From: Halobacteriales archaeon QS_1_68_20
GTDB taxonomy: Archaea > Halobacteriota > Halobacteria > Halobacteriales > PXRE01
Direction of reading: 5' to 3'
Assembly: GCA_003021085.1 (NCBI GenBank)
Contig: PXRE01000006.1
Coordinates: 1 to 64,000, forward strand
Length of the DNA stretch: 64,000 nucleotides
Shown here: positions 542-36,690 of the stretch, piece after piece
Layout of the letters: each line of letters opens with the position of its first letter
How positions within the stretch are numbered: position 1 is the first letter of the stretch
Position numbers and translations under genes: made by a program
Notes under the pieces: generated by a model
The model's database searches: none
What the model saw: the letters and a program-made list of their open reading frames with translations, nothing else
Told to the model about the DNA's origin: nothing

Positions 542-690
542 CGGCGATCACCTCGGCCGCGTACGGCGTCGGCCATATCTACGCCCTTTCAGCAGAGAAT
601 GATAAATCTACGGGCAGATGGCCGGCTAAAAGATGACGTTGGGTTGAGTGGTGGGCACGTTCTCCGTAGACTGGTTCCTGGCCGACAACA

Positions 691-810
691 CGCAGAAAGC
701 CCGCGCGCGCTCGACTCGCGCGGCTCGCTGCGGTCCGCAGTCGCTTCGCTCCTTCCGGTCCTTACGTCGCCGGGCGTCGTCCAGCGCGCGGCTTCTTTCA
801 GTCCCGCCCA
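691..810 (-). repeat. Dispersed GAAAG/CTTTC stem-loop element, copy 1
   Basis: Read on the minus strand the element begins GGGACTGAAAG and ends GCGCGCGGGCTTTCTGCG. The two ends are complementary over the GAAAG/CTTTC arm and again over a CGCGCG arm, with unpaired purines between them. The interior holds GGAGCGAAGCGACTG and CGCAGCGA blocks that recur in copies 2 and 3. The 25 nt before GGACTG (811-835 on the plus strand) match one unit of the arrays seen before copies 2 and 3. It lies between the J-protein-like gene and the DUF5788 gene, with no coding potential that I trust. Confidence 0.7.
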
Positions 811-861
811 ACAGCTCGGCTCGACCACCAGCCTCCCAAGCCGACTGCGTTACTCAGTCGC

Positions 862-1086
862 GCCCTCCGGGCGCTCCGTGCGTTACTCATCCCTCGCGCG
901 GTGTCGGCTCGCGGTCGCCGAGGGCGACACGCGAGCCAGCGCGCGCCACGACCCCAGGTTTGGCTCACTGCGCGCGCGAGCAACGCGCGCGATGTCCCCG
1001 TGAGCCGTGCGAACGGGGGCTCGGGAGAGCTTGCTCTCCCGGTGGACGACGTGAGCGTCCGGGTGAACGGCGAAGCCGCGAACCCA
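862..1086. other. Hairpin-dense non-coding tract
   Basis: Between the stem-loop element and the DUF5788 gene I count at least seven consecutive self-complementary segments. Examples are GCGCCC-TCC-GGGCGC; a stem of GGCTCGCG with CGCGAGCC enclosing GTCGCC-GAG-GGCGAC; CGGGAGAGC-TT-GCTCTCCCG at 1022-1041; and GGACG-N7-CGTCC. This density is far above that of the other intergenic regions in the window. It could be a structured RNA or a mosaic of haloarchaeal palindromic repeats. The ORF-track lines here are low-complexity Arg/Ala-rich translations that I do not accept as genes. The rest of 542-1272 shows nothing else recognisable. Confidence 0.5.
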
Positions 1087-15218: not shown

Positions 15219-15234
15219 CCGGCCAAAGGACGAT

Positions 15235-15396
15235 GGTGGCCGGCACAACCGCAACGTCGACGGTGACCGGCACAGCCGCAACGTCGACGGTGACCGGCAC
15301 AACCGCAACGTCGACGGTGACCGGCACAACCGCAACGTCGACGGTGACTGCCACAGCCCCAAAGTCAACGGTGACCGGCCCGATCCACGCCGTGTG
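15235..15396 (+). repeat. Tandem array of 27-bp units (GGTGACCGGCAC core) leading into stem-loop element copy 2
   Basis: Units start at 15235, 15262, 15289, 15316, 15343 and 15370, each 27 nt. Four are almost identical (GGTGACCGGCAC followed by RCCGCAACGTCGAC), the fifth is degenerate, and the sixth keeps only GGTGACCGGC before running into GTGGGACTGAAAG. The array is a multiple of three and reads as a repetitive peptide in the ORF track, but it has no start, no family and sits after a stop, so I treat it as non-coding. Confidence 0.85.
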
Positions 15397-15504
15397 GGAC
15401 TGAAAGGGGCCGGGCGTTCGGCGGCTCCCGGGTGACGTAAGCACCGCAGGCCGAAGGCCGAGGAGCGCAGCGAACCCCGGAGTCCCGAGCGCCCGGGGGC
15501 TTTC
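15394..15504 (+). repeat. Dispersed GAAAG/CTTTC stem-loop element, copy 2
   Basis: The ends are GTGGGACTGAAAGGGGC and GCCCGGGGGCTTTC. The arms GAAAGGGGCCGGGCGTTCG and CGAGCGCCCGGGGGCTTTC pair throughout except for a GGG/GGG internal loop and one G-T wobble. Relative to copy 3 one C-G pair has become G-C, a compensatory change. The interior contains GACGTAAGCACCGCAGG and GAGGAGCGCAGCGA. No other gene fits between 15219 and 15594. Confidence 0.75.
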
Positions 15505-15594
15505 GAGGTGTTCTAACCAACGAATTCTGTTTATCTGCGCACTCCACCGATGCACGACCAAACGTCTTTTTGCGACGGTCGGCAATTGGCGGGT

Positions 15595-27411: not shown

Positions 27412-27451
27412 CCCAGTTCTCCGAATCGACTGCACTGCTCAATCGAGCGGT

Positions 27452-27551
27452 GGTGGCCGGCACAGCCGCTTTCTGAGGTGGCCGGCACGTCCGGATTCGG
27501 AGGTATCCTGCACGACCCCATTCGGAGGTGGCCGGCAGATCCGCCAGGGTG
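27452..27551 (+). repeat. Array of four 25-bp units (GGTGGCCGGCAC plus 13-nt variable part) before stem-loop copy 3
   Basis: Units begin at 27452, 27477, 27502 and 27527. The first 12 nt of units 1, 2 and 4 match GGTGGCCGGCAC (unit 4 ends in G) and unit 3 is degenerate. The following 13 nt differ between units, two sharing ATTCGGA. The last unit runs directly into GGACTGAAAG of the stem-loop element, as at 15 kb. Confidence 0.75.
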
Positions 27552-27666
27552 GGACTGAAAGGGGCCGCGCGCTCGGCCCCGCCCGGACGACGCAAGCACC
27601 GCAGGGAGCGAAGCGACTGAGGAGCGCAGCGAGGCAACGTCCGGGGTCGAGCGCGCGGGGGCTTTC
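27549..27666 (+). repeat. Dispersed GAAAG/CTTTC stem-loop element, copy 3
   Basis: The ends are GTGGGACTGAAAGGGGC and GCGCGCGGGGGCTTTC. The arms GAAAGGGGCCGCGCGCTCG and CGAGCGCGCGGGGGCTTTC pair perfectly except for a symmetric GGG/GGG internal loop. The interior holds GACGCAAGCACCGCAGG, GAGCGAAGCGACTGAGG and CGCAGCGA. It ends 3 nt before the GTG used for the next gene. Confidence 0.78.
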
Positions 27667-27669
27667 TAC

Positions 27670-28407
27670 GTGGTGGTGTCCGAGAGGCCGTCAACGAAGC
27701 GCGCGGAGACTTTCGGGGCGCTCTACGTACGGAACTCGAACTATCCGACGCCTATCCGAATCGACCTCCCCGGGATTTACGTTCGGCACTGCGTATTCCA
27801 GCGCGTGAGCGTCGAGTTCGAGACGTCCGTAACAGGCGACCGCAAGAGCGTCGACCTCGGGGAGATAGACGGCGGCGTGGCGGTGGAGGGCGACCGCGTC
27901 TCCGTGTCGGGGACGCTGGTCGCCGACGCGGTGCCGCTGGCCATCCTTGGGGAGTCCACGTCCGTCACGATCGGGGGCGACGGCGGCACCGTGCGCCTCC
28001 ACCACGAGGGGAGTCGCAACTCCCTGACCGTCGCCCCGGAAATCGAGGTCGAGACCGTCGAGGACACCGGAAGTCGGTTGTCGGTCAGTCGGGACGAACG
28101 CCTCTCGACGGACACCGGGCCGTCGGACCTGGTCAGGCGCACGCGCGCGCAGGCCTACGGCGACCTCGGGTGGTTCGGGTACGCGACGGTCCGCTACCAG
28201 TCGGAGGCGTCCGACCAGGAGCAGTGCCGGTACTGCGGCCGCGAGGCCGACGAGATCGTCCACCGCCACGAGGAGACCGTCCTTTGCCTGTTCGGGGCCT
28301 GCCTGACGGTGAAACGCGGCGGCGTCTCCGACGAGTGCGAGTACTGCGCCGTGCGACTCGGCGATATCGAACTGAGCGAAGAAGAACGCCGCCGGATCTA
28401 CGACTGA
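27670..28407 (+). CDS. Hypothetical protein with C-terminal cysteine pairs
   Basis: The 245-residue protein has a beta-rich N-terminal two thirds with alternating Val/Ser/Thr strands (SVEFETSVTGDRKSVDL, GGVAVEGDRVSVSGTLVAD) and a C-terminal metal-binding-like region with CRYCGREADEIVHRHEE, then CLFGAC and CEYCAVRLGDIELSEEE. The paired CxxC motifs suggest a zinc ribbon. No family recognised. The GTG start follows the repeat element by 3 nt; a later start is possible because the first 20 residues are not distinctive. Confidence 0.65.
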   Translation: MVVSERPSTKRAETFGALYVRNSNYPTPIRIDLPGIYVRHCVFQRVSVEFETSVTGDRKSVDLGEIDGGVAVEGDRVSVSGTLVADAVPLAILGESTSVTIGGDGGTVRLHHEGSRNSLTVAPEIEVETVEDTGSRLSVSRDERLSTDTGPSDLVRRTRAQAYGDLGWFGYATVRYQSEASDQEQCRYCGREADEIVHRHEETVLCLFGACLTVKRGGVSDECEYCAVRLGDIELSEEERRRIYD

Positions 28408-36471: not shown

Positions 36472-36566
36472 ACGGGTGGTTGGGGCGCCAGCGGGACAAC
36501 GCGTCCGCCGACTGTGCGTGGGAAACGGTGTCGGGCTTTCCTCGTACGGTCGCTCTGACAGCGACA

Positions 36567-36615
36567 CGCAGAAAGCCCCCGCGCGCTCGACTCGCGCGGC
36601 CCCTTTCAGTCCCAC
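36567..36615 (-). repeat. Dispersed GAAAG/CTTTC stem-loop element, copy 4 (minimal)
   Basis: This is the shortest copy. Read on the minus strand it is GTGGGACTGAAAGGGGC-CGCGCG-AGTCGAG-CGCGCG-GGGGCTTTCTGCG. The arms pair through CCGCGCG and GAAAG with the same GGG/GGG internal loop, but the interior present in the other three copies is absent. Confidence 0.75.
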
Positions 36616-36660: not shown

Positions 36661-36690
36661 TATATGAAAATATGTGCATATTTTCATATA
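36661..36690. promoter_or_regulatory. AT-rich perfect palindrome (two 14-bp arms, 2-nt centre)
   Basis: TATATGAAAATATG and CATATTTTCATATA flank the dinucleotide TG and are exact reverse complements. The block is wholly AT-rich within GC-rich sequence. It could be an operator for a dimeric repressor, or a strong hairpin. The rest of the 36472-36876 gap holds repeat copy 4, the CCGCCGGC/GCCGGCGG hairpin near 36770 and the TTTTGCATGC block; no gene is seen. Confidence 0.7.

Follow-up and report, generated by a model that had tools for sequence, protein, structure and literature searches.

What is the stem-loop that recurs in this stretch of haloarchaeal DNA (the window, 64,000 nt), a folded RNA, a small mobile element or both, and does it belong to any named family? 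The sequence-only reading had placed four copies in the window, and a covariance-model search of the 64,000 nt recovered exactly these four, at the same places, with no fifth copy of the hairpin. The sequence-only description was also correct on the GAAAG/CTTTC ends and on the symmetric GGG/GGG mismatch, which is AAG/GGG in copy 1, as well as on the common interior ACGYAAGSACCG...CGCAGCGA and the bare hairpin of copy 4. Missed at that stage were the conserved GGGYGGGACT that flanks the hairpin on its 5' side, the 25–27 bp tandem array 5' of copies 2 and 3, the other leader before copy 1 and the repeated downstream 3' arms; the unit first described is the middle part of a larger element. The features of the window are as follows.

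689-807, minus strand: core hairpin of copy 1, with the AAG/GGG loop variant (covariance-model match)
808-899, minus strand: type B leader of copy 1, GCGAGGGA ... GGCTTGGGAGG with a hairpin of its own between them, a type common to other families
15231-15379, plus strand: leader of copy 2, 5.5 tandem 27-bp units CGACGGTGACCGGCACAACCGCAACGT, with a GTG-N5-CAC inverted half-site in each
15394-15510, plus strand: core hairpin of copy 2 (covariance-model match; z -3.9)
15402-15406 and 15500-15504, plus strand: GAAAG and CTTTC of copy 2, whose other parts are GTGGGACT and the inner stems and loops
15407-15409 and 15497-15499, plus strand: GGG/GGG internal loop of copy 2
15529-15546, minus strand: degenerate remnant of a terminal inverted repeat of IS6 type, on the 3' side of copy 2, matching GGTAGTGTTCAGATAAGC at 13/18 positions
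27448-27544, plus strand: leader of copy 3, 3.9 tandem 25-bp units CGGAGGTGGCCGGCACATCCGCATT
27549-27672, plus strand: core hairpin of copy 3, with GAAAG at 27557-27561 and CTTTC at 27662-27666
27700-27714, plus strand: second, decayed 3' arm unit of copy 3 (GCGCGGAGACTTTC), about 48 bp after the first
36565-36615, minus strand: hairpin of copy 4, interior collapsed (covariance-model match)
36661-36690, no strand: AT-rich palindrome TATATGAAAATATGTGCATATTTTCATATA, lying 5' of copy 4 at a distance of about 45 bp

Architecture of the element

In nearly every copy GGGYGGGACT precedes GAAAG, giving a conserved start, GGGYGGGACTGAAAGGGGC, and the element closes with a conserved end, GGGGCTTTC, followed by TGGCTGTT-like sequence. 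The core is 110–125 bp long, and its interior ranges from nothing (copy 4) up to nested hairpin modules, one of which (CCCGCGAG..CGAGCGGGA) lies inside 25 of the 85 host cores. In full, this module reads CCCGCGAG..CGAGCGGGA..GAGAGCTTCGCTCTC (seen in L031, L035, L043-L049, L079 and others) and looks like a separate haloarchaeal hairpin repeat.

Two main leader types, accounting for 40 and 39 of the 89 classified copies, were distinguished in the host genome. Type A consists of one to eight tandem 25–27 bp units GAAGGTGGCCGGCACnnCCGCn, with a GTG-N5-CAC half-site pair per unit, while type B is composed of GCGAGGGA, a second hairpin and then GGCTGGGGAGGCGTGnGG. The type B leader is common to other families, in several of which it includes a covarying hairpin and purine-rich linkers that do not vary; there the second hairpin often has a stem of 10–20 bp, with a sequence entirely different between copies. 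Behind the core, 25/85 host copies have additional 3'-arm units (at least one), spaced by about 48 bp. In the Haloarcula copies the tandem array is spelled differently (AGTGCGATTACACnnC) and the GTG..CAC pattern is kept as in the window arrays. This shared pattern suggests a putative protein-binding site. A 30-bp AT-rich near-perfect palindrome, TATATGAATATATGYRCATATATTCATATA, also recurs 5' of the cores, mostly those of type B (window 36661-36690; L013, L039, L043, L047, L050, L073, L081, L083 and L084), and is possibly a bidirectional promoter or a repressor site.

The type B form, about 250–350 nt long and ordered as hairpin 1 - GCGAGGGA - hairpin 2 - GGCTGGGGAGGCGTGAGG - core hairpin, could be read as a stand-alone structured ncRNA gene family having its own promoter in the AT-rich palindrome and acting in trans with a protein. 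We regard this as improbable: up to 200 diverged copies occur per genome, many of them without the type B leader, cores may be reduced to bare hairpins as in copy 4, and the palindrome, present 5' of many type B copies and thus in favour of such a gene, was near only 12 of 65 at the threshold applied. The covarying hairpin and linkers that type B has in common across several families, together with the favoured plus strand, remain on the side of an RNA gene.

Structure and covariation

The claim of real covariation, which is thin on four copies, proved overwhelming on 31 copies taken from many genera. RNAalifold predicted 29 pairs in 26 host copies, 18 of them with compensatory changes, and 30 pairs in the 31 multi-genus copies, with compensatory changes in 23. 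In the latter set the covariation score was 0.557, compared with 0.165 (sd 0.013) after shuffling and no more than 0.083 when the structure was slid, and paired cells amounted to 92.6% versus 71% shuffled. Even the outermost pair flips in f5 genomes, where GAAAG/CTTTC becomes CAAAG/CTTTG. The GGG/GGG internal loop is invariant in 31/31 of these copies (copy 1 of the host window has AAG/GGG); GACGYAAGSACCG / GAGSRCRCARCGAG, the sequences of the inner loops, hardly vary. Paired mutations have kept the fold throughout the order, which suggests that either the cell or the spreading DNA makes use of it.

Non-Watson-Crick cells in the main stem, counted on the GGGACTGAAAG strand of 218 copies, were G.T in 121 cases and A.C in 39, from which this is probably the folding strand; stem positions 11 and 12 give about half of the asymmetry, and the copies are not independent. 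Wobble asymmetry cannot tell RNA from a single-stranded DNA hairpin. The folded element that had been proposed is thus supported by order-wide covariation and by a wobble asymmetry favouring one folding strand, with RNA and single-stranded DNA not separated.

Copy number and distribution

The search with the covariance model retrieved many further copies beyond the window, with excess covariation. In the host genome (3.39 Mb in 40 contigs, 81.5% complete) it gave 85 matches; the 14-mer GGGACTGAAAGGGG, allowing at most one mismatch, also matched 85 times, versus once for the reversed control pattern. Across Halobacteriales, GGGACTGAAAGGGG is present in 328 of 394 genomes, at 0 to 203 copies each, with a very patchy copy number inside genera (3 to 147 in genus g5), and the covariance model detected 68–139 copies in each of five high-copy genomes from four genera. 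In the rest of the phylum, outside Halobacteriales, GGGACTGAAAGGGG counts equal those of the control (chance level), and in a scan of 84,980 species all loci were haloarchaeal among the matches listed. One or few copies were found on each of 31 haloarchaeal plasmids, unannotated but for one among annotated records. A viral origin was rejected, no match being found in the phages and viral contigs searched. Many haloarchaea have no copies or hardly any, which excludes an essential function.

Comparison with known families

Rfam covariance models gave no match beyond chance, at either gathering or relaxed thresholds, and the element is not classed with any known RNA family. Literature searches on the sequence, on haloarchaeal REP/MITE families and on structured RNAs found no description of it, and the sequence was not found described as a haloarchaeal repeat, in accordance with the initial statement that it has no named family. 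The sole exact literature sequence match of interest was a Desulforudis CRISPR repeat; a CRISPR-repeat origin of GTGGGACTGAAAG was set aside because the copies are dispersed singly, without spacers.

In architecture the element resembles BOX of Streptococcus pneumoniae, a modular intergenic repeat with more than 100 copies that folds when read as RNA, has inverted ends and target duplications in its intact copies, is densest 50–150 bp from a gene and is nearly confined to the pneumococcus and close relatives (PMC3049150). Apart from this narrow range these traits are common to both; the likeness is one of architecture, no sequence comparison having been made. BOX has variable tandem inner units between end modules, whereas in the haloarchaeal element the tandem units stand before and after the hairpin; moreover, the haloarchaeal family spans an order, its stem is wholly rewritten by covariation, and its sequence, leaders and carrier transposon differ from those of BOX.

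With REP/BIME/REPIN sequences (PMC3116915, PMC2817692) the element shares dispersed intergenic palindromes, compensatory changes, head-to-head doublets and excision, as well as a GTGG-like stretch before the palindrome in about half of the haloarchaeal copies. Its head is GYGG, being GCGG as often as GTGG, and does not fit the REP-type GT(A/G)G head. The REP palindrome measures 20–40 bp and the haloarchaeal core 110–125 bp, and no rayt gene with the element at its sides came to light. The RAYT and size tests thus fail, and the element is not classed as a REP/REPIN.

Haloquadratum walsbyi has the elements PATE and SMR (PMC3119063), which are likewise haloarchaeal, transposase-free and short, with palindromic or inverted ends. 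SMR-A is about 110 bp long, reaches 54 copies per genome, causes no target duplication and inserts into PATEs, which derive from IS605-type ends (PMC3119063). By contrast, the haloarchaeal hairpin sits among ordinary genes and has a transposon form with IS6-type ends and 8-bp duplications (no SMR sequence was compared). It is in these carrier copies, with their terminal inverted repeat GGYAGTGTTCAGATAAGC and 8-bp duplications, that the element resembles haloarchaeal IS6 (ISH29-like) insertion sequences and MITEs; most examined copies are without such ends, and the element in general is not classed as an IS6 MITE.

Mobility and loss

Genome G187 contains AGTGTTCAGATA 104 times when at most one mismatch is allowed, against 0 for the control. 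Often these occurrences form inverted pairs spaced by about 200 bp, between which the core holds a constant position. The inverted ends of this carrier form are GGYAGTGTTCAGATA, and the same ends border annotated IS6-family (ISH29-like) transposase genes on haloarchaeal plasmids. Target duplications were found at exactly 8 bp outside the ends, where 11 of the 33 end pairs in all loci analysed match in at least 6 of 8 bases, versus 0–1 pairs at most other offsets and 4 at +1; the core is present in 7 of these 11, and the best duplication is that of L121, with GTCCGGCC on both sides. The suggestion of a small non-autonomous element is supported by these carrier copies. IS6-type ends were also observed in Halobacteriales MAGs and, degenerate, on host type A copies. 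Many IS6-type MITEs have no core, most cores of other lineages have no IS6 ends, and the type B and Haloarcula-type copies examined have other leaders, without IS6-type ends. In at least one lineage, IS6/ISH29-type miniature transposons thus carry the core as cargo; it is not part of the insertion sequence. The ISH29-like IS6 of the host is broken at contig ends (L145, L155, L157, L161), and its copies are missing from the assembly.

Outside the IS6-carrier lineage no mobiliser was found. No Y1_Tnp match was obtained in the host genome, in G025 (one contig, 47 copies) or in G032 (82 copies), and mobilisation by RAYT/Y1 was rejected as a necessity, the Y1 transposase being absent from high-copy genomes; a single-strand mechanism other than REP/RAYT is not excluded.

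Presence and absence were compared in Haloarcula, not at the window copies' own sites. There many copies are arranged head to head in pairs, separated by about 28 bp; in several families the distance within such pairs is nearly constant. The element is present at one locus in six species, precisely the hairpin has been lost there from G157, with GGGTGGGACTTTCTGG left, and in other species the two genes are separated only by an empty gap of some tens of bp. Two kinds of scar, with the junction over CT or over GGG, are seen repeatedly in Haloarcula; slippage across a hairpin would be expected to leave such scars. Hairpin-less scars of the forms GGGYGGGACTTTCTGGCTGTT and GGGTGGGGCTTTCTGGCTGTT were recorded at L317-L343, some at the same place in several species. 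In four of the species that keep the element at this orthologous locus, the core is 93–97% identical, the leader 63–83% and the trailer 59–89%; gene conversion between copies could partly contribute to this. In two further species this site is occupied by a core whose stem differs in sequence but still pairs, an arrangement suggestive of exchange between copies.

Purely selfish mobile DNA has to be weighed here. The hairpin would then be only a substrate for a transposase or for replication, as in the single-strand transposition of REP/IS200, and its pairing would be kept because unpaired copies do not multiply. Such a reading would accommodate precise excision, the MITE form with target duplications, the head-to-head pairs, which are spaced like REP doublets, and the patchy copy number within one genus. 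It does not sit well with copies that, within one genome, are strongly diverged and have whole stems exchanged, with no recent burst, nor with a core that, at an orthologous locus, is better conserved than the sequence on either side, nor with the lack of a Y1 transposase in the high-copy genomes G025 and G032. On balance we hold selfish DNA alone to be unlikely, while keeping it as a serious competitor.

Position relative to genes

A position inside a gene is taken by only one copy in the host (of 84) and one in the named genomes (of 137). Between tandem genes, copies co-oriented with the genes outnumber opposed ones by 84 to 40 overall (34 versus 9 in the host, 50 versus 31 in the named genomes). 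This orientation bias is moderate (2:1), and an insertion bias could explain it. Of 69 named-genome copies, 42 have the core's 3' end 80–120 bp before a start codon, and the genes downstream of those copies show the usual haloarchaeal TATA AT peak at -28 to -25, thus placing the element just upstream of the promoter. Haloarchaeal intergenic gaps are short, so part of this positional pattern may reflect tolerance and not choice. No recurrent neighbour gene was seen as a partner beside the named loci and no recurring transposase family; the neighbour-gene survey found no protein partner of the element.

Type A host copies start 13–80 bp after stop codons, mostly in the direction of the upstream gene, as would a terminator or 3'-end signal of that gene multiplied by chance. 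No intrinsic-terminator T-run follows the hairpin, however, a TGGCTGTT-type sequence standing there instead; for all copies the upstream gene is co-oriented in 70 and divergent in 71, and the target duplications and transposon ends would be left needing another explanation. A terminator origin is accordingly very hard to sustain.

Discussion

Taken together, the evidence establishes a mobile, modular and structurally constrained intergenic repeat. The explanation we prefer, with some reserve, is a composite one, in which small modular intergenic hairpin repeats, BOX/REP-like and mobile, occur widely among haloarchaea and are partly kept as cis-acting hairpins; function is here inferred and not demonstrated. 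In this composite explanation the GGGACTGAAAG strand would fold, most probably as an RNA transcribed from upstream, for which there are no transcript data, and an as yet unidentified host protein might recognise the GGG/GGG loop and the inner loops. Copies landing between a stop codon and the next promoter would be tolerated, and part of them may be kept as cis-acting structures, which could insulate or 3'-end-stabilise the upstream transcript or tune the downstream promoter. Not inferred but shown is that in at least one lineage the repeat travels as cargo of IS6/ISH29-type MITEs, and that in Haloarcula it can drop out precisely at the hairpin foot. A stronger version, namely an order-wide dispersed structured-RNA system, with tens to about 200 copies per genome in many species and a dedicated host protein binding its hairpin, which transposons would spread and which would serve widely for cis-regulation or insulation, can be put forward only tentatively and is rather doubtful at present.

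BOX, REP and ERIC are structured small repeats of bacteria, mostly limited to a genus or a small group. One covarying family extending over an archaeal order would be their archaeal counterpart, and this one was previously unnamed and is unannotated in nearly all public plasmid records checked. Copies that are present, absent or precisely excised between the same genes would provide hundreds of natural experiments on what elements of this kind do, and hundreds of sequences of one fold would offer a means to find its protein.
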